Origin: Thiohalocapsa sp.
GTDB taxonomy: Bacteria > Pseudomonadota > Gammaproteobacteria > Chromatiales > Chromatiaceae
NCBI GenBank assembly: GCA_028277725.1
Contig: JANQFX010000049.1
Coordinates: 40,558-104,557 of the forward strand
Direction: 5' to 3'
Length of the DNA: 64,000 bases
In this document: piece by piece, positions 38,145 through 55,941 of the stretch
How the letters are laid out: each line of letters opens with the position of its first letter
Numbering within the stretch: the stretch's first letter is position 1
Translations under genes and position numbers: made by a program
The notes under the pieces: generated by a model
What the model was told of the DNA's origin: nothing
Database searches by the model: none
Seen by the model: only the letters and a program-made list of their open reading frames with translations

Positions 38145-40580
38145 ATGAGCAGGGTCACGCTGACCACGCGCGCCCAGCGCAGCCTGGCCGCGCTGGGCGA
38201 CGCCCTGCCGAGGCTGCCGACGCTCTCCTGGCGCCGGCGCGGAGACGAGGGCATCGGTTCCGGCTTCGAGCGCCGCCCCAGCCTGCTCGAGGTGCTCACC
38301 CTCAGGCCCTACGGCCGCAGCATGCTGACGCCCGCGGCGGGCATCTGGCTCGGCTCCGCCTGGTTGATCATCCTGCTCATGGCGAGCATTGAGGGCTTCG
38401 TCTGGGGGGCCGTCGGCGCATCGCTGGTGCCCTCGGCCTCAGCCGCGTTGCGCTGGCCCGTCGCCGTGTTCATGTTCTTATTGTTGTTCTGCATCGTCTG
38501 GATCGTCGATGCATCCCTGATCATGTCCGAGCGACCGGAGTCGCGGCGCCGACGCGCGCTCGACGACGACAGCGTCAACCCCGTTGCACGCTGGTACATC
38601 GGCATCGTCGTGCGCATCGCCATCGTCGGCATCTCGCTCTACGTCACCGCGCCCTTCATCGAGAAACTGATCCGCGCCGACGACATCGCCAGCTGGCACC
38701 AGACCCAGGTGGAGCGCTACTACGAGACACGCGAGGCGACGCTGCGCAAGCAGATCAAGGAGCGTGCCGAACAGCGCGACGCGGGCCTGCTCGGCCGGGT
38801 GGACGCACTGGAACGCGACATCGAGCGCATCGAGGCATCGCTGGCCGCCGAGCGCGAGCGCCGCGCCGCCATCGAGGCGGAATTCACACCCCAGCTGGAC
38901 GTGCTGACACGCGACCTCGCCGACGCCCGCCAGCGGGTCGGCGACGAGGTGCTGGGCCGCGAGGGCCGGCCGGAGGGCTACGGCCCGGAGGCGCGCAAGT
39001 GGGACGCCCGCGCCCAGCTGCTGGAGGCGCAGCTCGCCGACATCCAGTCCCAGCGCGACGCACGCCTGTCCGGCATCGAGGCCGGCATCGTCGAGCTCAG
39101 CAACCGCCTCGGCGAGCGCACCGACGCGCTGCAGGACGTGCGCCGCGAACAGGCCGCCCTGGTGGCGGAGATCACGCGCGAGGTGGAGGCCGAGCAGCCC
39201 CCGGCGCTGCCGCCCAAGCTGACCTTTGCGGCCCGGTCCAAGGCCCTGAGCGCGCTGCGCAACAGCCCCGCCGAGGCCGGCGTGCCGCACTTCGAGACGG
39301 TGGAGGGCTTCGCGCAGGCGGCGCTCGGTATCCTGTTCTTCGCTTTGCTGGCGCTGAAGTTGTTCGAGCCGCCTGCCGTTCATGCCTATTTCAGCGAGGC
39401 GGTGCAACTCGCCTACCGCCGCTACCTCGACGGCGGACTGGCCCATCTCCCGGGATTCGATCAGCACCAGGACCCCGCCCGCCGTCTTGCGCCGGTCGGC
39501 TTCGCCGGGCTCTGGGAGCAATGGCAGCGCGACCCCCATGGCTTCGCCGCCCGCCAGCAGCACGTCCAGTCCGCGGAGTCACGCCTGCGCCGCCTGGGCG
39601 CCGATATCGACTACGAGTCCGAGCTGCTCGATCGGCGCCGCGACGATATCGACGCCCGGCTGGTCCTCGAACGCCGGCGCCAGGAGGCCGAGCTGCGCGC
39701 CCTGGAACAACAGCTCGACCTGGAACTGGCCGAGCACCAGCGGCGCCTGTCCGAGGAGACCGACGCCGAGCTGGAGCGGCTCACCCAGCAACGCGAGCAG
39801 GCCCGCAAGTCGCACGAGCTGGCGCTCGCGGAGCTGGACCAGCGCTTCGCGACAGAACGCGCGCGGCTCGACGACGAGCTCGCGCAGCGGCGCGCGGCCT
39901 GGCAACGGGAGCAGGCCGAGGCCGAGGCCGAGCTGGAGCAACGCAAGCGGGCCGTCGAATCCGCCGAGCGCCAGCAGCGCGAGCAGGTGCGACTCAAACA
40001 GCTCGCGCTGGACGATCGCCGCCGCCTGCGCGAGCGCGCACTGGAGCACCGCTCCGCCGCCGAGCGCGCCGAGCGCGACGTCGCCAGCCGGGAGCTGCGC
40101 ATCCGCGAGACCCGGGCCCTGCTGGAGCAGGAGCGCGAGGCCGAGGCGCGGCTGCGCGAGCAGCGCGGCGAGCTGCTGGCGAAGCGTAGCGAGCACGCCG
40201 ACCGCGCCGCAGCACTGGCGGCGGAACTGGAGCAGGGCGTGCTGCGGCAGTCGGAGCTCAGCGGTCGGGCCCGCGAGCTGCGCACGGCCATCTCGGACAT
40301 GGGCTCCACCGATGCGGGGGGGCTACCCTTCGGCGGCGGCGAGGACGGCCGCCGTCGGCGGCGCGTCGACAAGGAGCTGAAGCAGCTCGACCGCGCCATG
40401 GAGCAACTGCAGCTGCGCCGCGGCCGACTCGCGGTGGAGCGCGCCGGCGCCGATCAAGCGACGAGCGAGCTGGACGCCAGCATCGACGCCCTCGACCGCG
40501 ACATCGGCGACGCCGGCTCACGGGTCGGCCGCTACCGCGACACCCTGGATCGGCTACTGCTGGCGCGCGGCTCGACCTGA
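38145..40580 (+). CDS. DUF4407-like membrane protein with long coiled coil
   Basis: N-terminal TM helices, very long Arg/Glu-rich coiled coil. Confidence 0.75.
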   Translation: MSRVTLTTRAQRSLAALGDALPRLPTLSWRRRGDEGIGSGFERRPSLLEVLTLRPYGRSMLTPAAGIWLGSAWLIILLMASIEGFVWGAVGASLVPSASAALRWPVAVFMFLLLFCIVWIVDASLIMSERPESRRRRALDDDSVNPVARWYIGIVVRIAIVGISLYVTAPFIEKLIRADDIASWHQTQVERYYETREATLRKQIKERAEQRDAGLLGRVDALERDIERIEASLAAERERRAAIEAEFTPQLDVLTRDLADARQRVGDEVLGREGRPEGYGPEARKWDARAQLLEAQLADIQSQRDARLSGIEAGIVELSNRLGERTDALQDVRREQAALVAEITREVEAEQPPALPPKLTFAARSKALSALRNSPAEAGVPHFETVEGFAQAALGILFFALLALKLFEPPAVHAYFSEAVQLAYRRYLDGGLAHLPGFDQHQDPARRLAPVGFAGLWEQWQRDPHGFAARQQHVQSAESRLRRLGADIDYESELLDRRRDDIDARLVLERRRQEAELRALEQQLDLELAEHQRRLSEETDAELERLTQQREQARKSHELALAELDQRFATERARLDDELAQRRAAWQREQAEAEAELEQRKRAVESAERQQREQVRLKQLALDDRRRLRERALEHRSAAERAERDVASRELRIRETRALLEQEREAEARLREQRGELLAKRSEHADRAAALAAELEQGVLRQSELSGRARELRTAISDMGSTDAGGLPFGGGEDGRRRRRVDKELKQLDRAMEQLQLRRGRLAVERAGADQATSELDASIDALDRDIGDAGSRVGRYRDTLDRLLLARGST

Positions 40581-41696
40581 ACCGGCCGCGGCCTCGAATG
40601 CACGGCTCCGACTGACCCGCGCCTCGTCGCCGACGCGCTCGACGAACAGCGCCGCCAGCCCCAGCTCATCGGCCAATACCCTGCCCCGCTCCGGACCGAG
40701 CACCAGCAGCGCCGTGGCCCAGGCATCGGCGTCGGCGCAATGCTCGGCCAGCACGGTCACCGAGGCCAAGGCGTGATCCACCGGCCGGCCCGTGGCGGGG
40801 TCGATGGTGTGGGAGTACCGTCGGCCGCCCAGTTCGAAGAAGTTGCGATAGTCGCCGGAGGTGGCCATGGCGCGGTCTTGCAGCGACACCACGGTCAGCA
40901 CGGCGCGCCGGTCCACATCCGGGCGCTCGATGGCGATACGCCAGGGCTCCCCCGCGGCATTGAGCCCGTGCCCGCGCAGCTCGCCGCCGATCTCCGCCAG
41001 GTAGTGCTCGATGCCGGCCTCGGCCAGCAGATCGGCAATGCGATCGACGCCGTGGCCCTTGGCGATGGCGGACAGGTCGACATAGAGGTCGGGCGCGGCC
41101 TTGCGCAGCGCCGGCGGCGCCATGCGGGTCTCGACCTTGCGCCAGTCGACCCGTGCCAGGGCCGCGTCGATGTCCGCCTGGGCCGGGATCTGATCCGCCG
41201 TCACCTCCGGCCCGAAGCCCCAGAGGTTCACCAGCGGCCCGACGGTGACGTCGAAGGCGCCGTTGCTCTGCTCGCTCACGGAGCGGGCCTTGTCGGCCAG
41301 GCCGACGAGCTCCGGCGAGACCTCAAACCAGCCCGTGCCGTCCTCGGCATTGAAGCGCGACAGCTCCGAGTCCGGCTGGTAGGTGGACATGCGGTCGTTC
41401 ACCTCCGCCAGGGTCCGGGTGATGTCCGCGAGCAAGGCGTCCGGGTCCAGGGACTCCGGCGGCTGCGCGACCTGCACGCTCCAGGTGGTGCCCATGGTCG
41501 CGCCGGACAGGGACAGGGTCCGACCCTCGGAACCGCAACCGGCGAGCAGCACCAAGGCCAGCAGGAGCAGGACGGCGCCGAGTGACAAAGCGCCCGGCAA
41601 CCGGCCGGCGGGCGGGCACTGGACAGCGCGGGCGCCCTTGCCCATGCTGCGCGCGAAGGCAAAGGGCCCGGTGAAGGCACGACTCGACATGATCAA
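40554..41696 (-). CDS. apbE: FAD:protein FMN transferase (ApbE)
   Basis: Lipoprotein signal (LVLLAGCGSEG), GATMGTTWSVQV, FDVTVGPLVNLWGFG, HTIDPATGRPVDHALASVTV. Confidence 0.94.
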   Translation of the reverse strand: MIMSSRAFTGPFAFARSMGKGARAVQCPPAGRLPGALSLGAVLLLLALVLLAGCGSEGRTLSLSGATMGTTWSVQVAQPPESLDPDALLADITRTLAEVNDRMSTYQPDSELSRFNAEDGTGWFEVSPELVGLADKARSVSEQSNGAFDVTVGPLVNLWGFGPEVTADQIPAQADIDAALARVDWRKVETRMAPPALRKAAPDLYVDLSAIAKGHGVDRIADLLAEAGIEHYLAEIGGELRGHGLNAAGEPWRIAIERPDVDRRAVLTVVSLQDRAMATSGDYRNFFELGGRRYSHTIDPATGRPVDHALASVTVLAEHCADADAWATALLVLGPERGRVLADELGLAALFVERVGDEARVSRSRAFEAAAGSGRAARQQ

Positions 41697-42531
41697 ACTG
41701 GTGGTCTCCGACCTCGACGGAACACTTCTGACGCCGGAGCACCGGCTCGGCGATTATACGCGCGAGGTGCTGGCCCGCGTCCGCGCCGCCGGCGTCGAGT
41801 TGGTGCTCGCGTCCGGCCGACACGTCATGGATATCCGGGTGCTCGCGTCACAGGTCGCGGGCGAGTCCGACGCAAGAGACGGCGGCTGCCTGGTGAGCTG
41901 CAACGGCGCCGCCGTCAACGCCGGCGACGGCAGCCTGGTGCACTCCACCTGCCTGCCGCCGGAGATCGTGGAATTCCTGCTGCACGACCCGCTGTTCGAG
42001 ACCGTGCAGAAGAACGTCTTCCTCACCGACGGCTGGCTGGTGGAGCGCGAGGAGCCGAGCCTGCTGCGCTACCACCAGGAGTCCGGCTTCCGCTACCAGG
42101 TCGTCGACTTCGCCGACATCGACCGGACCGCCGTGCTGAAGGTCTTCTACTACGGCGAACAGGAGCAACTGCGGGTGCTGGAGCGGCAGCTGCTCGACCG
42201 CCACGGCGGGTGCATCAGCACCACCTTCTCGCTGCCCGTGACGCTCGAGGTCATGGCCGCAGGCGTCAGCAAGGGCGCCGCCCTCGCCCGGCTGCTGGCG
42301 ACGCGCGGGCTCGACGCCGCGGACGTCCTCTGCGTCGGCGACGGCATGAACGACCTCGACATGCTCCAGCTCATCGCCGAGGGCGGCGGCCGGGCGCTGG
42401 TTATGTCCAACGCCGACGAGCGCCTGCACGCCGCCCTGCCCGACCTGCCGCGCGCCGGACACAACAGCCAGGAGGCCGTCGCCCGGCGGCTGGCGCAGCT
42501 GCTCGACGACGGGCAACTCGGCAGCGGATAG
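41689..42531 (+). CDS. Cof-type HAD-IIB family hydrolase
   Basis: MIKLVVSDLDGTLLTPEHRL, LEVMAAGVSKGAALARLL, VLCVGDGMNDLDML. Confidence 0.92.
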   Translation: MIKLVVSDLDGTLLTPEHRLGDYTREVLARVRAAGVELVLASGRHVMDIRVLASQVAGESDARDGGCLVSCNGAAVNAGDGSLVHSTCLPPEIVEFLLHDPLFETVQKNVFLTDGWLVEREEPSLLRYHQESGFRYQVVDFADIDRTAVLKVFYYGEQEQLRVLERQLLDRHGGCISTTFSLPVTLEVMAAGVSKGAALARLLATRGLDAADVLCVGDGMNDLDMLQLIAEGGGRALVMSNADERLHAALPDLPRAGHNSQEAVARRLAQLLDDGQLGSG

Positions 42532-42604
42532 CCCGACGCCGGCGCGTGTCTCCAAACTGACACCCGGCCGGCACCACCCGCGCCGCCCGGAGGCGGCAGA
42601 CCAC

Positions 42605-43030
42605 ATGGCCCTTCAGATCACACCCAGCATCAGCATCGACGAGGACGAACTCCAGGAGCGCTTCGTGCGCGCCCCGGGCCCCGGCGGGCAAAACGTCAAC
42701 AAGGTCGCCACCGCGGTGCAGCTCAGCTTCGACGTGCGCAACTCCCCGTCCCTGCCCGCCGCCGTGCGCGCCCGGCTGGAGAAGCTCGGCGGCTCCCGCG
42801 TCGACAACGACGGCGTCCTCAACATCCAGGCCCACAGGCACCGCACCCGCGAGCGCAACCGCGCCGACGCCCGCGAACGCCTGGCGGAACTCATCGCCAA
42901 GGCCAGCCATGTCCCCAAGCCCCGCCGCCCCACCAAACCCTCCCGAGCGGCCAAGGCCCGCCGCATGGACGACAAGAAGCAACGCTCCCGGATCAAGCGG
43001 ATGCGCGGGCAGGTTCGGGGCGGGGACTAG
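42605..43030 (+). CDS. arfB: alternative ribosome rescue aminoacyl-tRNA hydrolase ArfB
   Basis: GGQ motif FVRAPGPGGQNVNKVATAVQL and basic C-terminal tail. Confidence 0.95.
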   Translation: MALQITPSISIDEDELQERFVRAPGPGGQNVNKVATAVQLSFDVRNSPSLPAAVRARLEKLGGSRVDNDGVLNIQAHRHRTRERNRADARERLAELIAKASHVPKPRRPTKPSRAAKARRMDDKKQRSRIKRMRGQVRGGD

Positions 43031-43105
43031 TTGGCAAATACCAACCGGCATCGAAGGGGTGTCGGCATGTGCGAGCGGCATTCCTGCCGCGACCGACTTC
43101 CAGAG

Positions 43106-44572
43106 CGGGTCAACGCCTTTCGGCATCACGGATGAGGGGCCGCATGAAGCGCGAGGACCACCTGGCGCCGGGGACGTGCTCAACGCCTTTCGGCATCACG
43201 GATGAGGGGACCGCGTGCCATAGCTCAGGCCGTCCGCACGCGCGGGTGCTCAACGCCTTTCGGCATCACGGATGAGGGGACAGGAACCCCGAAAGCACCC
43301 GATGTCTTGGTCGGCGGGTGCTCAACGCCTTTCGGCATCACGGATGAGGGGACCCGTCTGGGGGACGGTCACACCGCGTCGGGAATTCGTGCTCAACGCC
43401 TTTCGGCATCACGGATGAGGGGACAACATCATCGGGCAAACGGGCAATACGAACGGCGAGTGCTCAACGCCTTTCGGCATCACGGATGAGGGGACCTGAT
43501 CATCGTCAACGTGATTGGTGCCGGCGTTTTGTGCTCAACGCCTTTCGGCATCACGGATGAGGGGACTGGACGAGGAAGGCACGAAGCCCACGGTCACTAA
43601 GTGCTCAACGCCTTTCGGCATCACGGATGAGGGGACCCCGGATAACCGTCATCCTGGCCGCCACAAGGAACTGGTGCTCAACGCCTTTCGGCATCACGGA
43701 TGAGGGGACACTACCGTTCGTCGGACACTTGGTTAAAAGTATAGAGTGCTCAACGCCTTTCGGCATCACGGATGAGGGGACCCGCATCAATCCCTGCGAG
43801 CTGGGCTAGTGCGACTGGTGCTCAACGCCTTTCGGCATCACGGATGAGGGGACGTCTCGCGGTCGCGGTCGTTGCCTTGGCTCTGTTGTGCTCAACGCCT
43901 TTCGGCATCACGGATGAGGGGACCTGCGATCATGAGGAGACGGGGCAAGAGTGCATCGTGCTCAACGCCTTTCGGCATCACGGATGAGGGGACCGTGTCA
44001 ACCACGCCAAAGGGTTCAATCTCTATCGAGTGCTCAACGCCTTTCGGCATCACGGATGAGGGGACTCGTATACGAGCTCGACCAAGACCCGCCATGCAAA
44101 TGTGCTCAACGCCTTTCGGCATCACGGATGAGGGGACCCATCCTTGACGCCGAGGCGGCCTCGCCAAACACATGTGCTCAACGCCTTTCGGCATCACGGA
44201 TGAGGGGACAGGGAGGCCGAGTTCAGAGAGAACTCGGTTATAGAGTGCTCAACGCCTTTCGGCATCACGGATGAGGGGACACAGTCGTACTTCTTGGCGA
44301 TGTTTTCCGCCGTGACGCCGTGTGCTCAACGCCTTTCGGCATCACGGATGAGGGGACACACCCAGCCGCCCGAGCCCCGGTCCGCGCCAGCCATCTGGCT
44401 CAACGCCTTTCGGCATCACGGATGAGGGGACACGTGCTGCTGCTGCCTTTCGTCGATGCGATTTGGCAGCTCAACGCCTTTCGGCATCACGGATGAGGGG
44501 ACACGCGCCATCGATGCCGGCAATCAGCCGGTACAGATGCTCAACGCCTTTCGGCATCACGGATGAGGGGAC
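43106..44572 (-). CRISPR. CRISPR array: 21 repeats of 36 nt, 20 spacers (mostly 34-37 nt)
   Basis: + strand repeat GTGCTCAACGCCTTTCGGCATCACGGATGAGGGGAC; starts at 43106 (degenerate), 43176, 43246, 43318, 43389, 43460, 43531, 43601, 43674, 43746, 43818, 43888, 43958, 44030, 44102, 44174, 44245, 44322, 44396, 44467, 44537. Minus-strand transcription inferred from the leader boxA, the GAAA-loop hairpin with G-U pair on that strand, the TTGAGCAC handle, and the degenerate terminal repeat at the low-coordinate end. Confidence 0.98.
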
Positions 44573-44595
44573 ACACCGCGATTGTAACAGCCTGT

Positions 44596-44607
44596 TGTTA
44601 AAGAGCA
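44596..44607 (-). promoter_or_regulatory. boxA antitermination element in the CRISPR leader
   Basis: Minus strand TGCTCTTTAACA, matching boxA consensus (Y)GCTCTTTAACA, 24 bp from the last repeat. Confidence 0.8.
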
Positions 44608-44812
44608 TTCACGGACTTCTGCGGGCATGTCGACGACTCCGCGACAACCGTGCCGGTCGAATCGGGATCGATGCACAAAAACCTTGCTTTTTCAGTTTCT
44701 TACGGCACACATGGATGGCTGGATTGAAGACATCATCAGAGGTGGTTATCCGCGCGGGACATTCCGAGCCCGACGGCCGGCGGCAAGGCCGGCCAAGCGC
44801 TGATACCCGCAG

Positions 44813-45121
44813 TCACAGGATCTCATATCTGGGACGATGGGCATCCCAGCCGTTATCTTGGCCTTTGACCTGTACCCGACCCGCGCAACTGGGGCACAGG
44901 TGCACGAACATCAGGTCGTCCTCGTCGGCGAGGACGCGGTGCAGTTCCCAGCGCAGGCGTTCCATCTCCGTCTTGGATAGCCGGCAGCGGAACAGGGAGT
45001 ACTGGATGCGCTCTCCAGTGCCCTTGAGGACCTTATAGGCGTCACGCCAACGCGCTTGGTCGCGGATGTCGTAGCTGACCAAGTACCAGCGCTTCTCGGC
45101 ATGTTCGTGATCGTGGGACAT
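44813..45121 (-). CDS. cas2: CRISPR-associated endoribonuclease Cas2
   Basis: RWYLVSYDIRDQARWRDAYKVLKGTGERIQYSLFRCRLSKTEMERL. Confidence 0.95.
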   Translation of the reverse strand: MSHDHEHAEKRWYLVSYDIRDQARWRDAYKVLKGTGERIQYSLFRCRLSKTEMERLRWELHRVLADEDDLMFVHLCPSCAGRVQVKGQDNGWDAHRPRYEIL

Positions 45122-46761
45122 CAGCGAACCCTCATCCGCGCGAACAACCCAGGCGCGCCGCTCCATTCCTTTTCCAACAGCCGGACTTCGAGCTCGATGG
45201 CGCGCGCATAGCTCAGCGAGTATTCCAACACCGGGTGTTTCCACCGCTCCTGCTTGCGCTCTTCGTACAGTGCGATGGCGAGCTTGCGCCCCTCCGACGA
45301 GAGCCAGACCTGGGACGGCGCGATGGCGAAGTGCCCTTCGCTCCACTGACGCCGATTGACGGATGCCACCAGCGGCATATCCCAGAGCGTGGTGCGGAAG
45401 AGCTCCATCAGGTCCAGAGCCAAGGGGTAGGCCGCACTGCGCGCCGAGTGGAAGAATCCCAGCGCGGGGTCGAGCCCCACACAGAGCACCGCCGCCATGA
45501 CATCTCGATACAGGAGGCTGTAGCCGAAGCTGAGCGCGGCATTGAACGGGTCCTTCGGCGGGCGGCGATTACGCCCGCTGAAGCGCATGAGGGTCTGCTC
45601 CGAATCGAGCAATGCCCGCAGGCCGGCAAAGTAATGCCGCCCGGCCATGCCCTCGTGCCCACGATAGGCGGTATCCGAGTCGTCCCGCTCGATGCCGCGC
45701 AGTGCGGCTCGCAACCCTTGCAGCTGGCCTGAGATGGCTTCAGTGCACTTGCGGCTGCGCCCGCCGCGGATCAGGAAACCGAGCTGGTTCTCGATCTTGG
45801 CCTTGACCAATCGCTTGACGAGCTGTTCACGGAACGTCGTATCCGCGAGGCCGCGATACTGTCGCAAACGCCGCTGAACCCCAGGCGCCGGTGCTAGGGC
45901 GCCGATGTACGAACCGCCGCCGCTGAGCCAGTGCACGGCGATATCCCGCGACGCCGCGAACTGGATCAACTGCGCGCTGATCTGAACGGCGCCATGCAGC
46001 ACAATGGCCGCGACATCATGTGCCGGCAGGGCATGCTCCGCCCCCTCCCTTGGCTGAACCAGAATCTGCTCGCCCCGTTTGCCGACCCGAGTGCCTGGGT
46101 CCATGACGTGCAGGATGGTGCGCTCATCGTCCGCCGGGAACAGCCGTGGTGGCCTGCCCGCTGCACCTGTCGCGGCATCGGCCTGCGCCCGCAGCAGGCG
46201 CTCCTCCTCCGGCAGGCAGACGGGCGCCAGGGAGCAACGGGCACAGAGCCGCTCGTTGCTGGCAACGGGCGGGCGGTCGATACTGGCCCTGAGCGAGCGG
46301 GCCTGGCGCACGGCCGCGTGCACGGCCTGCTGCGCATACTCATCGACCGGAACGCGCACCGTCTTGTTGCTCGCGTGGTAGCGGATACGCGCCTGGGGTA
46401 TCGGCTGCTCCAAATGCTCGGCGAGCAACATAGCGTAGGCGACGACCTGAAGCCGGTCCGAGTCCCAGGCGTCATCGCCTCGGGCACGGCCGCGCTTGTG
46501 CTCGTAAGGACAAACGGCGCCATCGCGATAGCGCACATAGTCGAGTTTGCCCTTGATACCCAGGCGCCCGCTCTCGAGCGTCACGGTGGTCCACTCGCCA
46601 TCCTCGTCGATACCTTCGTGCAGGGTACGCCCCGCGTACACGCGGTGGTCGGCTACGCGGATTTCTTCGACCTCTTCGAGGTAGAACAGGCGCTCGCAAT
46701 AGGCGAGCGCATGCAGCGCCATGACCCGCAGCAGGGGTAGCTCTTCGGTTTGCGCTTGCAT
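45121..46761 (-). CDS. cas4-cas1: CRISPR-associated Cas4/Cas1 fusion
   Basis: N-terminal Cas4 (LAYCERLFYLEEVEE.., CARCSLAPVCLPEE Fe-S cysteines) followed by Cas1 (ALHGAVQIS..FAASRDIAVHWLSGGGSYIG, FNAALSFGYSLLYRDVMAAVLCVGLDPALGFFH). Confidence 0.96.
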   Translation of the reverse strand: MQAQTEELPLLRVMALHALAYCERLFYLEEVEEIRVADHRVYAGRTLHEGIDEDGEWTTVTLESGRLGIKGKLDYVRYRDGAVCPYEHKRGRARGDDAWDSDRLQVVAYAMLLAEHLEQPIPQARIRYHASNKTVRVPVDEYAQQAVHAAVRQARSLRASIDRPPVASNERLCARCSLAPVCLPEEERLLRAQADAATGAAGRPPRLFPADDERTILHVMDPGTRVGKRGEQILVQPREGAEHALPAHDVAAIVLHGAVQISAQLIQFAASRDIAVHWLSGGGSYIGALAPAPGVQRRLRQYRGLADTTFREQLVKRLVKAKIENQLGFLIRGGRSRKCTEAISGQLQGLRAALRGIERDDSDTAYRGHEGMAGRHYFAGLRALLDSEQTLMRFSGRNRRPPKDPFNAALSFGYSLLYRDVMAAVLCVGLDPALGFFHSARSAAYPLALDLMELFRTTLWDMPLVASVNRRQWSEGHFAIAPSQVWLSSEGRKLAIALYEERKQERWKHPVLEYSLSYARAIELEVRLLEKEWSGAPGLFARMRVR

Positions 46762-46820
46762 GATCGCATCCCTCCATTATCCTTCGATAGATGACTCAAA
46801 CGTCCTACAGAGGTGCCCTC

Positions 46821-47120
46821 ATGGACTTCGTCAACGTTCGTGAACTCCGCGTTCAACCGGGTGTGGTGTGGAAGCGGCTCGCCGAAGAAGGCGAACTCGT
46901 GCTGACCCGCAACGGCAAACCCTTCGCAATCCTCACCGGGACCACGCCAACCGGTCTGGAACAGGATTTGAATGCCCTTCGCGCCGCCCGTTTTGGCCGG
47001 GCGCTTGCGGCAGTGCGACGCAACGCCGCCGACACCGGCACGGACGAGCTGAGCATGGAGGAGATCGACGCGTTGATCCGGGACGCCCGGAGCGAGCGGC
47101 ACCATGCGGCTGGTGATTGA
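46821..47120 (+). CDS. Phd/YefM-like antitoxin
   Basis: MDFVNVRELRVQPGVVWKRLAEEGELVLTRNGKPFAILTG; overlaps the PIN gene start by 17 bp. Confidence 0.8.
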   Translation: MDFVNVRELRVQPGVVWKRLAEEGELVLTRNGKPFAILTGTTPTGLEQDLNALRAARFGRALAAVRRNAADTGTDELSMEEIDALIRDARSERHHAAGD

Positions 47121-47529
47121 TACCAACGTGCTGGTGTCCGGCCTGCTGTCGGCCGGCGGACCGCCCGGCGCGCTGCTGGATGCAGTGCGCGCAGGCGAGG
47201 TACGCCCGGCGGTGTGTGAGCCGATCCTCGCCGAATACCGCGATGTGCTGCGCCGCCCTCGACTGCGCATTGCGCCATCACTTGCCGATGAGCTTCTTGC
47301 GACATTGGACGACTACGCCCTCCATGTGCCACCGGCCGAGATAGACCCGGCGGGATTTCCAGACGCCGATGACGCACCCTTCTATGCCGCCGCCTTGGCC
47401 GCGCACTGCCCACTGGTTACCGGCAACCTGAAGCACTTCCCCCGCGCCGGCACGGTCGTCGTCATCACGCCGCGCGAGGCCATGCTGCTGCTGTCGGCTC
47501 GGGTGAAGGGAGCCAACAACGCCCCCTAG
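47104..47529 (+). CDS. PIN-domain toxin (putative TA toxin, PIN family)
   Basis: MRLVIDTNVLVSGLLSAGGPPGALLDAVRAGEVRPAVCEPILAEYRDVLRRPRL, DADDAPFYAAALAAHCPLVTGNLKHFP. Confidence 0.9.
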   Translation: MRLVIDTNVLVSGLLSAGGPPGALLDAVRAGEVRPAVCEPILAEYRDVLRRPRLRIAPSLADELLATLDDYALHVPPAEIDPAGFPDADDAPFYAAALAAHCPLVTGNLKHFPRAGTVVVITPREAMLLLSARVKGANNAP

Positions 47530-48212
47530 TCGTAGCCCACCGCGGTCCAGGCTGATGCCGGCACCGCCTCTGTCACCGCGGACGCGAACATGAACAGCCG
47601 ACTCTCGGTGCGCGACATGTCCGCCCGATCAATGCGGACGGTGAGCCGCATGGGCTCTGCCTCCATGGACATCGGCTCGTCCGTGCCCATCGGCACGAGC
47701 CAGCGCGCCGCTCGGGCGGCCGGCAGCGGCTCGATCCGATCCGGCAGAAAGCTGTTGTCCCCCAGAAACGGCAGACCATAACGAGACGGCCCGCGGCCTT
47801 CGAGACCGTCCACCACGGCCGCCGCCAGCGCATCGTTTCCGCGCAGTCCGATGCAGGCCGAGAGCCCGGACAGGAAGGCCCGCCGAGCCGGCGCGATGTT
47901 GTACTTACTGCCCCTGCAGGCCGGCGCGTGCGCCTTGCCACTGCTGCCCACGGGATAGTTGTGCAACTGCTGGTAAACACTGTGCCGATCCGGCATTTGC
48001 AGCGCACCGATGGCGAGTTCGGCGCAGGGCAGATCGGACCCGATCAGCGTCATGGCGGACTTGCCGTCGTCGCGGCGCATCTCGATGCCGGCCAGATTCA
48101 ACAACAGCCCATAGCAGGCGGACGGCGTCAGGAAGGGCGCTGTCGGCCTGAAACTGCCGGCGGAGAAGGTCCGAAAGGTCGCGAAGGGCGCTTGCAGGTA
48201 GAGCCAGAGCAT
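47526..48212 (-). CDS. cas5: Cas5 (DevS/Cmx5-like)
   Basis: N-terminal MLWLYLQAPFATFRTFSAGSFRPTAPFLTPSACYGLLLNLAGIE; located after DevR-like cas7. Confidence 0.88.
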   Translation of the reverse strand: MLWLYLQAPFATFRTFSAGSFRPTAPFLTPSACYGLLLNLAGIEMRRDDGKSAMTLIGSDLPCAELAIGALQMPDRHSVYQQLHNYPVGSSGKAHAPACRGSKYNIAPARRAFLSGLSACIGLRGNDALAAAVVDGLEGRGPSRYGLPFLGDNSFLPDRIEPLPAARAARWLVPMGTDEPMSMEAEPMRLTVRIDRADMSRTESRLFMFASAVTEAVPASAWTAVGYD

Positions 48213-48219
48213 GGCGGCG

Positions 48220-49152
48220 TCACCGCCTGGCGGGCGTAAGCCCAGCGCGATCCGCGACGGTCTCCAACAGGCGCTGCGGGCTGCGCTCCAGGGTTACTCC
48301 CTGCTTTTCGAGGGCGTCGCGCGTGGCGTCATCCATGTCCTTGACGATGCGCCCGCCGAGCAGGAACTCATCCCCCGGATAGTCTCCCTCCCGCAGGTCG
48401 GCCACCAGCTCTGGGAGGCGGTGCGTCTCGCCGTCGACGCGGAAGCCGTAGGTGTCGAAGCCAGCCACCAGGCGCTTGGTCAGTCGCACGACGATCGAGG
48501 CCGGCGCCATCTCGAAGTAGCTGCGCGCGTGGTTGCCCGCAACCTCGTTCAGCTCACCGATTACCTGCAGCAGGGTGCGCGTCCAGTCCTGGTGAGCCGC
48601 GCAATCATCGAGGTTGAGCGCGCACGGGTACTGATACGCGGTGTAGGTGGTCTCGCGGTGTAGAAGCTGACTCTTGTCGGCATTCTTCCAGGGGCTGCCC
48701 ACCTGCGCCGGCGACTGAGTGAAGACCGTGTCGTGCCGATAAGGCTCCAGAGCGACGGCCATGTTCATGCGAAGGATCGAGTCACGCCGGAAGCTGAAGC
48801 GCGCGGGATCGCGTCCCGCCGTCTGCAATGCCTTCGTAATCTTCTTCCGATCGGAATCGCCGGCCGCGACCAACCACCCCATGAAGAAGTCGTCTGCGAA
48901 CCGGTCTGGATCGGGGTAGTCATCGAACTTGACCGCAAGCTGATCTTCATCGCCCAGGCGCTCGCGGTTGCACGGCAATCCCATCCGCCGCAGGTGCTCG
49001 CGGATGGCGTTGCGAATCGCCTCCGGGCTGATGATTGCGTACTCCAAGTTCCCCTTTGCTATCTTCTGAATCACGGCCCGATTCTCGGCGGACTCCCCGC
49101 GATAATTCGCGCTGGGCGCGGCGTAGGTTAGTACAGTGGCGAATAGATTCAT
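48220..49152 (-). CDS. cas7: Cas7 (DevR/Cst2-like)
   Basis: MNLFATVLTYAAPSANYRGESAENRAVIQKI...YAIISPEAIRNAIREHLR. Confidence 0.9.
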   Translation of the reverse strand: MNLFATVLTYAAPSANYRGESAENRAVIQKIAKGNLEYAIISPEAIRNAIREHLRRMGLPCNRERLGDEDQLAVKFDDYPDPDRFADDFFMGWLVAAGDSDRKKITKALQTAGRDPARFSFRRDSILRMNMAVALEPYRHDTVFTQSPAQVGSPWKNADKSQLLHRETTYTAYQYPCALNLDDCAAHQDWTRTLLQVIGELNEVAGNHARSYFEMAPASIVVRLTKRLVAGFDTYGFRVDGETHRLPELVADLREGDYPGDEFLLGGRIVKDMDDATRDALEKQGVTLERSPQRLLETVADRAGLTPARR

Positions 49153-49171
49153 GATATGGGCTCCTTCCGGT

Positions 49172-50872
49172 TCAAGCAGAAACGGCCGAGGTGTCGTCCT
49201 TCGGCTTGGTTTCCGAGCCGTTGTCGCCTTGCGCACTCCAGGAGTGCGCTGAAAGCGCAAGCATTGCGAGGGTCTTGACTTGCTCGGGTTCGTTTAGAAG
49301 TCGATCCGCAAGCAGAAGAAAATCCGACTCTTTCAGGTGAAAACCCTGCGCGCACAGGGTGCCTGTGAAGTACTCGGCGACGTCCTGCGCGCGCCTTGCA
49401 CGCAGCGCCAGAAACGCGTTGCTCGCAACCTTCGGTTTAGCGTCTCGATACCGAGCAAATTCCGCGGGAACGAACTGATGGAAGTCCTTTCCGCTATTGA
49501 TACCCGCCCGATCTCGCGTGCGCTTCTCCACATAATTGCGCACGACCCGATAAATCAGGCTCTGTAGGGCTTTGTCACGGTCCTCATCAAACATGGATAA
49601 CTCCTCATCACAAATATCGGCAATGGTCGCCGAGAATTGCCTGCGCACGTCCGTGCCAAAGAAACGGCCCCTCGGGGTCTTGGGGCCGTGCACGAAATAT
49701 TCCGAAGGAAAGCACTCGAACAAATCGAAGGCGCCGGAATACCACGGACGGCCATCCAGCAGATTGCGTAGTTGCAGCCGTTTGAACAGCGGGTGCTTCT
49801 TGCCATCGCCGCGTACTCGTTCGTAGTCCGCCAGCAACTCCGCCCGCGGCACCAGCTTCTCGGCGGCGAGCTGGCGGACGTTGTTGCCCTGCTTGTGCTG
49901 GTGGTAGAGCTCCACGGCATGCAGACTGTCCGTCAGGTGCGATTTCCCAATACGGCGCTGAGCCAAGTGATATAGGAATTCGAGGCCGCCCTCCTCTGGC
50001 AGATCGACCAATGCCGACGCCGGCCGATAGCCGACCTTCTCGGCATCCAGGGATTTCCAATAGAACTCCATATCTTCGACGAAGGTTTGCAGGTCGGCGA
50101 CCTCCGGAATCGCCAGCAGAAACCCCTGATAGTCCCAAGTGCCCTTGCGCGGATCGATGACTCGCGGCACGAAAACGGGTGCCGCCCAGGGCCAGAAATG
50201 GAGCAGCAGATTGTGTTCCACGTGCCCCTCGAACCCAACCCGCTCGGCGTTCTTGTCCTGGGCGCCGATGAACAGCGACCCGGCGATGGACTCGACCACG
50301 AACTTGCCCTTGGCGCGGCCCGCTTCCGCCTTCGTCAAAGAACGCCAAAGTCTTTCAGTGAAGCCCACGGGTTGCCCGTCCGCCCGGTTCTGGTACTCGC
50401 CTCGGGTCTTGGGCTGCGCCCGCAGTACGCCCCAGAGCATCCCCTGCCACAAACGAAACCAGGGATCTTGCTTGCCCTGGGGGCGCCAGTGGGCAATGAC
50501 TTCGCACTGGGGCCGGAGGTCCTTGTACAAGAACAGCTTGACCTGCTCCTCCTTGCCGTTGCGTTGCACGGCGTCGGTCTTCTCAGCGAGCGGCGCCTTA
50601 CTCGGGTACTTGCTCCGCACCCGGTTGTCTTCCAACGCGCCGGCATAGAGGTCATCGAACAGGCATTGCAGCGAGTCCCGGCTGATGCGGATGCTTGCCT
50701 CCAACGCGTCCGCCCTCTCGAGGACCGGGCCGGCGGTGAGGTGCCGAGCCTCCAGGCTGCGCAGGTGCAACAGCAACCCGGCGAGGCCGGCCTTGTGCTG
50801 TGCGGTCGGCAGGTCGGTGAGGTTGTACTGGAGCAGCAGGCTCTGCTCCTCCGGCGTTTGTGTTGCGCTCAT
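49172..50872 (-). CDS. cas8: Cas8 large subunit (DevT/Cmx8-like)
   Basis: Position between cas3 and cas7, 567 codons; overlaps cas3 by 4 bp (ATGA-type); recognisable as type I-MYXAN Cmx8-like. Confidence 0.78.
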   Translation of the reverse strand: MSATQTPEEQSLLLQYNLTDLPTAQHKAGLAGLLLHLRSLEARHLTAGPVLERADALEASIRISRDSLQCLFDDLYAGALEDNRVRSKYPSKAPLAEKTDAVQRNGKEEQVKLFLYKDLRPQCEVIAHWRPQGKQDPWFRLWQGMLWGVLRAQPKTRGEYQNRADGQPVGFTERLWRSLTKAEAGRAKGKFVVESIAGSLFIGAQDKNAERVGFEGHVEHNLLLHFWPWAAPVFVPRVIDPRKGTWDYQGFLLAIPEVADLQTFVEDMEFYWKSLDAEKVGYRPASALVDLPEEGGLEFLYHLAQRRIGKSHLTDSLHAVELYHQHKQGNNVRQLAAEKLVPRAELLADYERVRGDGKKHPLFKRLQLRNLLDGRPWYSGAFDLFECFPSEYFVHGPKTPRGRFFGTDVRRQFSATIADICDEELSMFDEDRDKALQSLIYRVVRNYVEKRTRDRAGINSGKDFHQFVPAEFARYRDAKPKVASNAFLALRARRAQDVAEYFTGTLCAQGFHLKESDFLLLADRLLNEPEQVKTLAMLALSAHSWSAQGDNGSETKPKDDTSAVSA

Positions 50873-53202
50873 GCGTCAGCATCCTGGTTTGTCGTGAGCG
50901 GTTCCTTCATGAAGCCCAGTGCGGGCGAGTAATGGCTCGCGGGCGCCTGCCGCAGATGGCGCGGCAAGCCGGGGTTTGTGGTTAGCGGAAAGCTCCTCGG
51001 CACCGGCAGTACGAGGCCATCCGCTCCCGGACGCCAACGTGGGAGGTCTCGGTCCAACACGGCGCTCACGGTGAAGTCGTCCGTGTCGCGCAATCTGTTC
51101 GCGCCACCCCGCGCCCAGGGACCATCCACGAGGAAGGCGTTCAGCACATCACGCTCAGGCTGAGCATCCCGGGTCAGATCATCGAGTAGCTGTTCGAGGC
51201 GGGCTTGGCCCACCTGCCGCCCCTCTAGCGCGGCAATGAAGACCTCCGATCCGGCCAAGTCCTCGGCCTGGTACGGCCGTTCCTTGTCAGGCTCGTAGAT
51301 GAAGACCTCGCCCAACGGGCGACCCTGCCGGAGGTGACGATGACAGCGACCCATGCGCTGGATCAAGGACGTGACCGGCGCCCGCTCGGTGATGAGTACG
51401 TCGGCATCGAGGTCGAGGCTCATCTCGCAGACCTGGGTGGTGATGGCGATGCACCCTCCGACCTCATCGTGCGTCGCCGCGAAGCGAGCGACCACCTCGC
51501 GGTGGCGCTCCTTGCGGTCTTCGAGCCTGAATCGGCTGTGATAGCAGAGCGGCGACAGGGACCGCAGCGTTTGGGTCAGGGCCTGGCAGCGGTCCACGGT
51601 GTTGACCACCCAAAGAACGCGCTTGCCGTCGGCGACCGCCCGCCGCGCGATGTCGTAGGCCGCCTCTTGATCTGCGAGTGAGTCGACTTGGTAGCGCGGT
51701 GCCTTGGCCTGCGCCTCTAGCTCCGCGAATTCGGCAAGATCTCTCGGATAGACCTCAAACCCCAGGCCCTCCAGTCGCGCGCGCCGCTGGACCGGCAGGC
51801 TTGCGGTCATACAAAGAACGGGCAGATCGAAGGCCTCAAGAAAACTGGTCAGCACGGCGAACAGGCCGGCATCGAAGCTGTGGACCTCATCGATGACCAC
51901 AACGCTGTCGGCCAGCACCGGCAGCAGGCAAGCGCTTTTGTAGACCTGCTGCATGAAGCCCAGGAACTGGTCCACTGTGGCACTGAAAATGCGCTTCCGC
52001 CACAGACCAACGGCATACAGGCGTTCGTCCGTCTCGAAGCTGCGATCGCCGCGGGGATCGTCCGGGTTGCTGAACATGTCCTCCAGTTCAAAGGCGGCGG
52101 TAGCACTCAGCAACGCGGCGTCCGCCTCCGGTGCATGCGATACATAGTCCTTGAACCCCTCGCTGGCGGTGCCGCGCGTCGGGTAGAGGAAGATCGCCCG
52201 CCCGGCTGGGTTGGCATCCAGTTGGCTGGCGACCCAACGCCAAGCGGCGTAGGTCTTGCCGGTGCCGCAGCTTGCGATCAACAGGGCGCGTGCAGCGAGT
52301 TCCGTAGCGCGGCGTTGAAAATCCCGCTCTCGAAAGCCCTGAATCTGTTTGCGCCGGGGCGCAAGAATGCCGTTCTCGATCTCTTGCGCCTGCAATCGGG
52401 CCGCCGGGAAGGCTTGGGCTATCCAGCTGGGAATATCCTCGCCAGTGCGCGGGAGACCGGAACCCGCCGAATCCGCGACCAGCAATGCCGCCTTCAGGGC
52501 CGGGAGCATCAGGTCCGGTGCGGGACCGTTAGCCCGATACCGTCGAGCGGCGCGTTCCAGTGGCCGCAAGTCACGCTGCACCGCTTGCGCTGCCGACGGT
52601 ATCGACTCGCCCTTCTCTCCGTCGAAACTCCAAACCCGCGGTGGTTCGGGTGGCTCGGGCAGACCGAGCCTTTGCGCGGCCACGCGCAGTAGGGCGTGCA
52701 CTTCGTCCGTCTCGGCGATGCGGAGCACATTGCGCTCGGCACTCGGATACCGTCCGGCGAACTCAGGGTAGCCGACGAACGGCGGCGGACTCGGATGCGC
52801 CTTCAGGTGATGGCAGGCCACCACGCTGATCACGAACTTGGGCTCCAGCAGCGGGTTGTGTGCCAGCCAGTCGCGCATCGGCTGGTGTGCGAGCAGCAAG
52901 GCGCTCAGATGTTCATGCCGCATCAACTGGGCGTCCCGCTCGCCGTGCATGGCGGCCTGGAAGCCGTCGTTGGCCTTGCCCAGATCATGCAGCAGGGTGG
53001 CGGCGGCCAGGTTGGCCCCGAAGACCGACCAGCATTCTCGTCCGAGCCGAAAGAATCGCAACCATGCGATCCCGAGCGCGGTCGGCGCCTCTCCACTGCC
53101 GAATAAGGCTTCGGCCGCGGCGAGTACATCCTCGGAGTGGGCTCTCAAGCCCTTGGGCGGCAACCCCTCCTTGTGCCCCTTGGCGAGCAACATGCTGGTC
53201 AT
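50869..53202 (-). CDS. cas3: Cas3 helicase/HD nuclease
   Basis: HD domain (LLHDLGKANDGFQAAMHG), Walker A-like IASCGTGKTYAAWRW, DEVH box VVVIDEVHSFDAGLF; ATGA overlap with cas6. Confidence 0.95.
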   Translation of the reverse strand: MTSMLLAKGHKEGLPPKGLRAHSEDVLAAAEALFGSGEAPTALGIAWLRFFRLGRECWSVFGANLAAATLLHDLGKANDGFQAAMHGERDAQLMRHEHLSALLLAHQPMRDWLAHNPLLEPKFVISVVACHHLKAHPSPPPFVGYPEFAGRYPSAERNVLRIAETDEVHALLRVAAQRLGLPEPPEPPRVWSFDGEKGESIPSAAQAVQRDLRPLERAARRYRANGPAPDLMLPALKAALLVADSAGSGLPRTGEDIPSWIAQAFPAARLQAQEIENGILAPRRKQIQGFRERDFQRRATELAARALLIASCGTGKTYAAWRWVASQLDANPAGRAIFLYPTRGTASEGFKDYVSHAPEADAALLSATAAFELEDMFSNPDDPRGDRSFETDERLYAVGLWRKRIFSATVDQFLGFMQQVYKSACLLPVLADSVVVIDEVHSFDAGLFAVLTSFLEAFDLPVLCMTASLPVQRRARLEGLGFEVYPRDLAEFAELEAQAKAPRYQVDSLADQEAAYDIARRAVADGKRVLWVVNTVDRCQALTQTLRSLSPLCYHSRFRLEDRKERHREVVARFAATHDEVGGCIAITTQVCEMSLDLDADVLITERAPVTSLIQRMGRCHRHLRQGRPLGEVFIYEPDKERPYQAEDLAGSEVFIAALEGRQVGQARLEQLLDDLTRDAQPERDVLNAFLVDGPWARGGANRLRDTDDFTVSAVLDRDLPRWRPGADGLVLPVPRSFPLTTNPGLPRHLRQAPASHYSPALGFMKEPLTTNQDADA

Positions 53203-53819
53203 CCTCGCCACGGGATGAATACACCGCACCCCATCTTCCGGCGCCCGCCGAGCCCGCTCGCCTGTAGACGCAGCGAGTGGTCCGCGCTGAGCTCGCTGAC
53301 GAGCAGGGAGTGTCCAACGATCGTCTTGTCCTTGACTCTCACGACCCGCCGCTTACCACGAGTGGCCTTGGCTACGATGCCGAGCCGCTCCATCTGCGCG
53401 GCGATTTCGGCATCGAAGCGCGCCTCGTCGTCTCCGTTGCGCGTTGTCACGACATGGGCATAGAGCGCGACGGCGGGTCGGAGCAGCCTGGTTGTCGGCA
53501 CGCCGATGCACAGGCCGTGCCCGTCCAATCGGATGGACTGGCCTGCGAGGCCGAGCACGTACGGGAGGTCTTCCGCGGACAGCCGCATGCGCAGCCTACT
53601 CTTGTCCGTCAGCCGCAGTAGTCCAGTGGAGGCGTACTCGCCTCGGATGAGTTGAATCGCGGCCTGATCGGTCTCGTGGAGCCATGACCCCGTGGGCGCG
53701 GACGCGCAGAGCGCAGCGTACAAGGTATAGCCGTGGTCGAGCGGGATACGGTCGCCGCGCAGGCCGAAGGCGCAGTCGACGATACGGAGAGGGTGGTTGT
53801 CGGTGTGGCCACTCGGCAT
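53199..53819 (-). CDS. cas6: Cas6 (Cmx6-like) crRNA endoribonuclease
   Basis: ATG at 53819 preceded by AAGGAGG; C-terminal glycine-rich LQASGLGGRRKMGCGVFIPWRG. Confidence 0.88.
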   Translation of the reverse strand: MPSGHTDNHPLRIVDCAFGLRGDRIPLDHGYTLYAALCASAPTGSWLHETDQAAIQLIRGEYASTGLLRLTDKSRLRMRLSAEDLPYVLGLAGQSIRLDGHGLCIGVPTTRLLRPAVALYAHVVTTRNGDDEARFDAEIAAQMERLGIVAKATRGKRRVVRVKDKTIVGHSLLVSELSADHSLRLQASGLGGRRKMGCGVFIPWRG

Positions 53820-53931
53820 CCGGGTGCCTCCTTGTGGTCTCTGTTTGAGTGGAACCATCTCGACCCGAGCGAAAGCACGCGTGTCCGAGTGGCTACTTTT
53901 TAGCACGGTCGGTAGCTCAGAGAGTGAGCCT

Positions 53932-54039
53932 GTGCGTGGAGCGCCCGAAGGCATCAAAGATGATAAGTGTGTCGACGACGCCGTCGCGACGGGAAAGCAG
54001 GTAGTGCTCAACGCCTTTCGGCATCCAAGAGAAGGATCA
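53932..54039 (-). CRISPR. degenerate stand-alone mini-CRISPR (two diverged repeats, one 34-nt spacer-like segment)
   Basis: 54004-54025 is a 22/22 match to the repeat segment GTGCTCAACGCCTTTCGGCATC; second diverged repeat at about 53932-53969 (GCGCC-CGAA-GGCATCAAAGATGA); segment between is 53970-54003. Confidence 0.72.
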
Positions 54040-54378
54040 GACCGATGTCCCTAGGTTGGCCCGCGACCGACGATCTGCATCAAGAATGTCACTATCACGG
54101 ACCATAAGCCTAGACCGCCCGCGCGAGAGCGCCCGGTGTCGCGGCGGTCGACCGGTTGTGACTCGAAGGTTTCTTCGCAGGTTTGCGCCGCGATCCTGAG
54201 ACGACCGGCCTGATCGAAGACCTCGACGCCATCCGAGTAACGAGCGTACCGCACTGTTACGTCTTCTGTTCCGACGCGCGCGAGTTGCAGCAACCGGACA
54301 TGGCCTAAGCCGTGAGGTCGGGCAACGCTCGCCGCGCGCGCTAGACTGACGACTACGCCAAGCCGGACCGATCTCGCC

Positions 54379-55941
54379 ATGCCCACCCGCAAGAAGCTGC
54401 CCATCGGTATCCAGACCTTCCGCGAGATCCGCGAGGGCGGGTACTACTATGTCGACAAGACGGGCTTTGCGCTGCGACTGGATGACGAGGGCAAGTATTA
54501 CTTCCTGTCGCGCCCGCGGCGCTTTGGGAAATCTCTGTTCCTGGACACGCTGGCGGAGTTGTTCGCCGGCAACGAGGCGTTGTTCCGGGGCCTGGAGGCG
54601 GAGCGGCGTTGGGACTGGTCGCGGCGGTTTCCGGTGGTCCGGCTCAGTTTCGGCGCGGGGGTTGTGCAGAGCGCCGCCGCGCTTGAAGTGCGGTTTCGCG
54701 AACTGCTGCGCATCAATGCCGAGGCGCTCGGACTCGCGCTGCACCGGGAGTCGGACATCAGCGGTCAGTTTGCCGCTCTGATTCGGGGTGCGCACGCCAA
54801 GCATGGCGAGCCGGTCGTGATCTTGGTCGACGAGTACGACAAGCCGATCCTCGACAACCTGACCCGCCCAGAGGCCGCCCGCGAGATTCGCGACGGGCTG
54901 CGCGATCTCTACTCCGTGATCAAGGACAGCGACGCACACATCCGCTTCGCGTTCCTGACCGGGGTGTCGAAGTTCAGCAAGGTGAGCCTGTTCTCGGGGC
55001 TCAACAACCTGAACGACATCACCGTCGATCCGCCCTATTCGGCGCTATGTGGCTACACGGAGGCGGACCTGGACCAGGTCTTCGCGGCGGAGCTGGAAGG
55101 ACTCGACCGCGCCGAGCTCCGCGACTGGTATAACGGCTACAACTGGACCGGGGAGGCGGTCTATAACCCCTTCGATGTCTTGCTGCTGTTCCAGAAGCGC
55201 GACTTCCGCCCCTGGTGGTTCGAGACCGCGACGCCGACCTTTCTGGTGGATCTGCTCCTGCAGCGGGAGGTGTTTCTGCCGCGGCTCGGGCAGCTCCAGA
55301 GCGACGCGGCCCTGCTCTCGCGGTTCGATGTGGGTGACATCGCCACGGAGGCGTTGCTGTTTCAGACCGGTTACCTGACCATCGAGCGCGAGGAGCAGCG
55401 TTTCGGCGAGTATTGGTACCGGTTGCGCTACCCGAATCGCGAGGTCTATCAGAGTCTCAGCAACAGTCTGTTGAAGGCTTGGACGCCCAACGGCCAGAGC
55501 ATGCTCGGCAACAAACAGCGTCTGGGCGACTTGCTGCTCGCGAACGACTTCGCGGGCATGGAGGCGCTGTTCACTGCCTTCTTCGCGAGCATCCCGAACG
55601 ATTGGTATCGCAACAACCCGATTGCGCACTACGAGGGCTACTACGCCAGCGTGTTCTACGCCTACTTCGCCTCACTGGGTTTGGATTTGACGCCGGAGGC
55701 GTCCAGCAACGCCGGCCGGCTCGACCTGGCGCTACGCTTCAACGGCCAGCTGTATCTGTTCGAGTTCAAGGTGGTGGAGTTGGCGCCCGAGGGCCGTGCC
55801 TTGCAGCAGATCAAGGACCGGGGCTATGCGGACAAGTACCGCGGAGAAGGCATGCCGATCCATCTGATCGGCGTGGAGTTCAGCCGTGAGCGGCGTTCGG
55901 TGGTGGGGTTCGAGGTGGAAGAGTTCTCGTCGACAGGGTGA
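54379..55941 (+). CDS. AAA-ATPase-like / PD-(D/E)XK nuclease superfamily protein (DUF1703 type)
   Basis: KKLPIGIQTFREIREGGYYYVDKTGFALRL, FLSRPRRFGKSLFLDTLAELF, VILVDEYDKPILDN, C-terminal GRLDLALRFNGQLYLFEFKVVE nuclease motif. Confidence 0.92.
   Translation: MPTRKKLPIGIQTFREIREGGYYYVDKTGFALRLDDEGKYYFLSRPRRFGKSLFLDTLAELFAGNEALFRGLEAERRWDWSRRFPVVRLSFGAGVVQSAAALEVRFRELLRINAEALGLALHRESDISGQFAALIRGAHAKHGEPVVILVDEYDKPILDNLTRPEAAREIRDGLRDLYSVIKDSDAHIRFAFLTGVSKFSKVSLFSGLNNLNDITVDPPYSALCGYTEADLDQVFAAELEGLDRAELRDWYNGYNWTGEAVYNPFDVLLLFQKRDFRPWWFETATPTFLVDLLLQREVFLPRLGQLQSDAALLSRFDVGDIATEALLFQTGYLTIEREEQRFGEYWYRLRYPNREVYQSLSNSLLKAWTPNGQSMLGNKQRLGDLLLANDFAGMEALFTAFFASIPNDWYRNNPIAHYEGYYASVFYAYFASLGLDLTPEASSNAGRLDLALRFNGQLYLFEFKVVELAPEGRALQQIKDRGYADKYRGEGMPIHLIGVEFSRERRSVVGFEVEEFSSTG

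Follow-up and report, generated by a model that had tools for sequence, protein, structure and literature searches.

The window, by which we mean the whole stretch of 64,000 nucleotides of Thiohalocapsa sp. DNA that we have analysed, contains a complete type I-B (MYXAN/Cmx8) CRISPR-Cas locus. All its cas genes are full-length and lie on the minus strand, where their order is cas6, cas3, cas8, cas7, cas5, a fused cas4-cas1 and cas2, followed by the array. Between cas5 and cas4-cas1 there is an antisense pair of genes for a Phd-like antitoxin and a PIN toxin, so that the interference genes are parted from the adaptation genes. The features are the following, in positions of the window:

43106–44572, minus strand: CRISPR array, 21 repeats
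44813–45121, minus strand: cas2 (PF09827, TIGR01573)
45121–46761, minus strand: cas4-cas1 fusion (MYXAN), divergent from phd (TIGR03983, 455.6 bits; Cas4 PF01930)
46762–46820, no strand: divergent gap of 59 nt from the cas4-cas1 start to the phd start, putative shared operator/promoter region
46778–46789, plus strand: box TATCCTTCGATA, putative Phd operator; related boxes lie upstream of phd in G561 and G562a
46802–46810, plus strand: box GTCCTACAG, second putative operator box; related boxes in G561, G562a and G563
46821–47120, plus strand: Phd-like antitoxin gene, 99 aa (PF02604, 22.5 bits over residues 1–38; alignment of seven homologues)
47104–47529, plus strand: PIN_3 toxin gene, 141 aa (PF13470, TIGR00305; alignment of nine homologues)
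47526–48212, minus strand: cas5 (Cmx5/DevS), tail-to-tail with the toxin gene (TIGR02586, 119.7 bits)
48220–49152, minus strand: cas7 (DevR-like; TIGR02585, 47.2 bits, below the cut-off of that model)
49172–50872, minus strand: cas8 (Cmx8; TIGR04413, 418 bits)
50869–53229, minus strand: cas3 (TIGR01587, PF18019)
53199–53819, minus strand: cas6 (Cmx6; TIGR02807, 202.5 bits)

The gene pair and its cas neighbours

The initial annotation had described two overlapping plus strand genes of this kind inside a cas operon which is entirely on the minus strand, and had seen that they split interference from adaptation genes. Open reading frames, profile matches and gene order agree with it on all these points. 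The phd gene runs from the ATG at 46821 to the TGA at 47118–47120, with a possible alternative ATG upstream at 46791; the toxin gene runs from the ATG at 47104 to the TAG at 47527–47529. They have the same orientation and overlap by 17 nt, as they also do in two homologous pairs, G561 and G562a. On the other side the stop codons of the toxin gene and of cas5 (the latter the complement of 47526–47528) have the tetranucleotide CTAG in common, as it had been claimed.

The toxin belongs to PIN_3: it reaches 70.4 bits with PF13470 (cut-off 27) and 36.8 bits with TIGR00305, "putative TA toxin, PIN family" (cut-off 29.15). Among the Pfam profiles it matches PIN_3 only, with no match to the classical PIN family PF01850. 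The acidic residues D6, E44, D87 and D90 are invariant in nine homologues, as is N108, and the PIN active site is intact. The antitoxin is less obvious, since its 22.5 bits with PhdYeFM (PF02604) are below the cut-off of 29.8. It was aligned with seven homologues, one of which, from G014, exceeds the cut-off of TIGR01552 phd_fam (27.7 vs 20.8). By its families, region 46821–47529 is a pair of the type II toxin-antitoxin (TA) kind, with a predicted toxicity and a predicted neutralisation. No sequence relative was found in the PDB, PADLOC gave no match and Rfam found nothing in positions 40000–55000 of the window.

Chromosomal type II systems with PIN_3/TIGR00305 (COG1569-type) toxins and Phd/YefM antitoxins are the nearest known relatives: the families, the antitoxin-toxin order, the 17-nt overlap and the invariant acidic residues are alike. 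The pair in the window differs from them because its family is embedded in cas operons or diverges from them, and because its antitoxin falls below the Pfam cut-off.

Upstream of cas6 there is a mini-CRISPR on the minus strand, at 53934–54039, whose two degenerate repeats are spaced by exactly 70 nt and enclose a 34-nt spacer. It looks like CreR, which regulates cas genes. G487 and G480 have similar units with different spacers before their cas6, and G561 has a single repeat there. For the spacer of the window no target was found in the promoters of the TA and of cas6. The regions upstream of cas6 in the window and in L103–L106 (five out of five) also contain a palindrome similar to GGCTCANTCTSTGAGCC and, after it, a TGNTA-type box; from their sequence they are likely to be a common cas promoter or operator. 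Elsewhere the genome of the window has a second Cmx6-type cas6 (G000:C113, L111 8060–8668) and a second cas4-cas1 locus, type I-G-like and with its own array (G000:C63, L112 6339–8021). At these two loci we detected no PIN-Phd pair belonging to this family.

The divergent gap

The gap between cas4-cas1 and phd, 59 nt long, has an identical length in the I-B locus of G561. Its first box begins 16 nt from the cas4-cas1 start codon, and the putative operator abuts the ribosome-binding site of that gene. The second box overlaps the ribosome-binding site of phd, so its conservation may reflect this site instead of an operator. Boxes of the form TCCTWC are repeated upstream of phd in the TA clade of the window, and in G562a there are four of them at 11-nt steps; the expectation is about 0.01–0.07 per 75 nt. 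G562b has no TCCTWC box upstream of phd. In G014 the gap to cas1 is 41 nt long and contains two TGTACA-type boxes. Such boxes have been reported for YefM operators. A scan of 46762–46820 recognised no sigma-70-like promoter in the gap, and a terminator scan of the junction found none.

The family at other loci

We have surveyed the cas5/cas4-cas1 junction in other I-B loci, where the pair may be present, decayed or absent. An intact antisense pair occupies it in G561, which is another genus of the same family. Its antitoxin (L103 12570–13061) has 163 aa, and the C-terminal part, presumably the one that binds the toxin, looks duplicated. In the SURF_13 MAG (L004) there is a PIN pseudogene, with residues 88–118 in one frame and 119–133 after a frameshift. 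This relic is the best profile match in its locus (17.2 bits, E 1.3e-4, while 200 shuffles gave at most 4.7): the toxin has decayed and the cas genes are still full-length. The reciprocal case is G091, from another family, where the cas genes have decayed and the TA is intact. Its pair lies inside a gutted I-B locus, flanked by a cas5 remnant and by the start of cas4-cas1 fused to the end of cas2, and one CRISPR repeat is retained. The recurrence in G561, SURF_13 and G091 excludes an accident of a single genome.

The three closest cas relatives of the window (G487, G480 and G548) have no TA at this junction, and in the alphaproteobacterial MAG L005 there is no room for one. The closest of all, G487, with 69% identity in the concatenated Cas proteins, has an empty site in which 38 nt separate cas5 from cas4-cas1. 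When it is compared with the window, the ribosome-binding site of cas4-cas1 is kept and the TA DNA amounts to about 750 bp, from ~46776 to 47527. In G548 (L106 8824–10629) cas7 is cleanly split after codon 136 by an insert of 1.8 kb, which carries a transposase-like ORF of 375 aa, IS110-like by eye.

The family is also found at other CRISPR subtypes. G014 has a complete type I-C operon with an array of its own; here cas4 and cas1c flank the pair, which is antisense to them, and phd lies 41 nt from the cas1 start. G561 has a second phd, divergent, 137 nt upstream of a type I-G cas4g-cas1g: here phd is intact, PIN ends prematurely at about 40 codons and an RHH-MazF pair follows. In G381 some 1.1 kb separate the pair from a type I-G cas4g-cas1g, and an RHH-MazF pair borders it on the opposite side. 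At the I-G loci the pair is placed at the 5' edge of the operon, outside it; the RHH-MazF pairs adjoin the PIN-Phd module at both of them (L152 10470–11128 and L107 234–1015). In all seven cas-associated cases, which cover I-B, I-C and I-G, the TA strand diverges from the gene that bears cas1. The gaps between phd and this gene are 59, 59, 92, 41 and 137 nt, and about 1.1 kb in G381. Free copies, away from cas loci, are present in G562 (two copies), G563 and G247. Upstream of phd in G563, a candidate gutted MYXAN locus, a repeat-like stretch (23/36) is no better than shuffles.

Other cargo is found in MYXAN loci of cyanobacterial plasmids: a classical PIN pair, which matches PF01850, between cas7 and cas5 in Synechococcus NIES-970 (L035 9847–10460), a HicBA pair directly before cas6 in Synechocystis (L037 4798–5209) and a Uma2 nuclease at the cas5/cas4-cas1 junction in Gloeothece (L120 9192–9833).

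An unbiased set of ten homologues from outside the window was chosen by PIN similarity alone (E ≤1e-18). Three of them are inside cas operons and one more is about 1.1 kb from cas4-cas1; the copies of G562 (two), G563, G247, G040 and G676 are not at cas loci. Another 25 PIN_3 relatives, weaker ones from the same taxonomic order, were examined with Cas queries of types I-B and I-C only, and at a distance of up to about 1.5 kb no Cas neighbour was detected for any of them. The association with cas genes seems to exceed chance, in a small sample which includes any background of defence islands.

The tree of the cas genes joins the window to the TA-less G487, with G561 and SURF_13 outside. In the TA tree two clades are supported: the I-B copies group with the free ones of genus g324, and the I-C copy groups with G381 and G247. 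A single clade of I-B-embedded TAs (window, G561 and G091) is rejected with p-AU 0.0007. It follows that the module has shifted between sites inside and outside cas loci, or inserted at the I-B junction on more than one occasion. The window and G561 alone as a clade are rejected too (p-AU 0.03), while a clade of the window with the three closest g324 copies is unrejected (p-AU 0.31). One ancestral insertion common to all I-B loci is rejected on the first two of these values and on the pairing of the window with G487 in the cas tree. We also considered phages and plasmids as a source of the module and discarded them: it has no match in phages and a single, distant one in plasmids. Viral contigs contain 13 weaker PIN relatives, with no cas genes detected nearby. 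In G561, G562 and G563 the dN/dS of PIN and Phd is about 0.16–0.29, so they are conserved as proteins; these ratios indicate purifying selection on the homologues in the three genomes.

Role of the pair

Protein TA pairs in cas cassettes have already been proposed to maintain CRISPR: in Sulfolobales vapBC pairs are interspersed among cas genes and such a role was suggested for them (PMC4390879). They are likewise protein pairs with PIN toxins. However they are archaeal, in type III-D for example, while the present family is bacterial and found in I-B, I-C and I-G; it is a single Phd-PIN_3 family, which time and again lies antisense and points away from the gene that carries cas1. Makarova et al. 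2012 (PMC3506569) described toxin-type genes in immunity loci, with typical antitoxins lacking. A toxin-type nuclease within a cas operon is also what we find here, but only here is the pair full. A literature search which covered few subscription papers found no published description of a PIN_3-Phd family beside cas1.

The initial annotation had proposed that the pair may guard the CRISPR locus, since a deletion would remove the antitoxin and could kill or arrest the cell. In such a lock the toxin that survives would act on the cell, and CRISPR-Cas would be kept. The pair is indeed flush against cas5 and cas4-cas1, it recurs inside cas operons and the Sulfolobales proposal is a precedent, but we find this reading quite unlikely. 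In SURF_13 the toxin is dead with cas intact, in G091 cas is dead with the TA intact, the closest relatives G487, G480 and G548 live without the TA and free copies exist elsewhere; furthermore, a protein TA guards adjacent DNA only and cannot sense a loss of Cascade function. The annotation had also drawn an analogy with CreTA, which breaks down at the mechanism. CreTA, CreR and CrePA are RNA-guided (PMC12737573): in CreTA/CrePA, as in the window, a toxin module is linked to a cas locus (PMC12737573, PMC9458426), but a crRNA-like antitoxin RNA and Cascade repress the toxin, which is released when Cascade is lost. The mini-CRISPR with its two degenerate repeats upstream of cas6 would be the candidate for such an RNA. 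However it is about 6.5 kb away from the TA, the TA promoter offers no seed match to its spacer and the TA has a protein antitoxin of its own. No crRNA-like antitoxin gene is found beside the toxin, the sole degenerate repeats found being those at 53934–54039, and there is no guide seed match in 46762–46820, with only chance-level 6-nt runs nearby. A mechanism of this type is highly improbable.

The pair could also be a mere passenger, an ordinary TA inserted where it is least harmful and functionally unrelated to CRISPR. Its patchy presence, its relics and free copies, and the unrelated cargo of other MYXAN loci (Uma2, HicBA, the classical PIN pair) are in favour of it, but orientation and neighbour are identical across three CRISPR subtypes, and the three cas-embedded homologues out of ten stand against none in 25 weaker relatives: we hold it to be rather doubtful. 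A closer bond with adaptation would arise if Phd were a repressor common to the toxin and cas4-cas1-cas2, whose degradation in infection would bring dormancy and spacer acquisition. The divergence from a cas1-bearing gene in seven out of seven cases, the putative operator boxes inside the gap and the I-G locus of G561, where Phd is intact next to a truncated PIN, are in favour of such a switch, and PMC3506569 had suggested that dormancy may "buy time" for adaptation. On the other hand the closest relatives have no TA, no promoter was recognised in the gap and the site upstream of cas1 may merely be the one that tolerates insertion best. We consider the switch unlikely, and equally unlikely that the Phd-PIN_3 family has been repeatedly recruited beside cas1 for the sake of one divergent operator over toxin and spacer-acquisition genes. 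If that were true, a loss of Phd during infection would set off dormancy and spacer capture together.

The probable explanation, in our opinion, is an autonomous type II addiction module which has repeatedly settled beside cas1, protects itself and probably also shapes the transcription of cas4-cas1-cas2. Its autonomy is apparent in the free copies of G562, G563 and G247 and in G091, where the TA outlived the cas genes. Judging from the families, the Phd-like antitoxin would restrain a PIN_3 ribonuclease and would repress a promoter common to phd and the PIN_3 gene. Members of the family would have repeatedly ended up head-to-head with the cas1-bearing gene, antisense to the cas operon. Such a pair would be kept mainly because its loss frees the toxin: it would protect its own DNA and the cas genes only incidentally, and protection of the locus is possible as a side effect of the TA. 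Since the putative operator sits in a short divergent gap and abuts the ribosome-binding site of cas4-cas1, binding of Phd to it may also lower or shape the transcription of cas4-cas1-cas2. Against this explanation stand the score of the antitoxin, below the Pfam cut-off, the negative promoter scan of the gap, the searches for the module in phages and plasmids with their single distant plasmid match, and the intact Phd at the I-G locus of G561, which next to a truncated PIN is superfluous in a purely selfish, toxin-driven account.

The coupling of dormancy toxins with CRISPR adaptation is an old proposal, for which there are few concrete gene arrangements to examine. This family supplies several: an empty site, a toxin pseudogene, cas genes dead around a TA and an orphan antitoxin beside cas4-cas1. 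It also calls for caution, as a TA inside a cas operon need not be a CRISPR guard.
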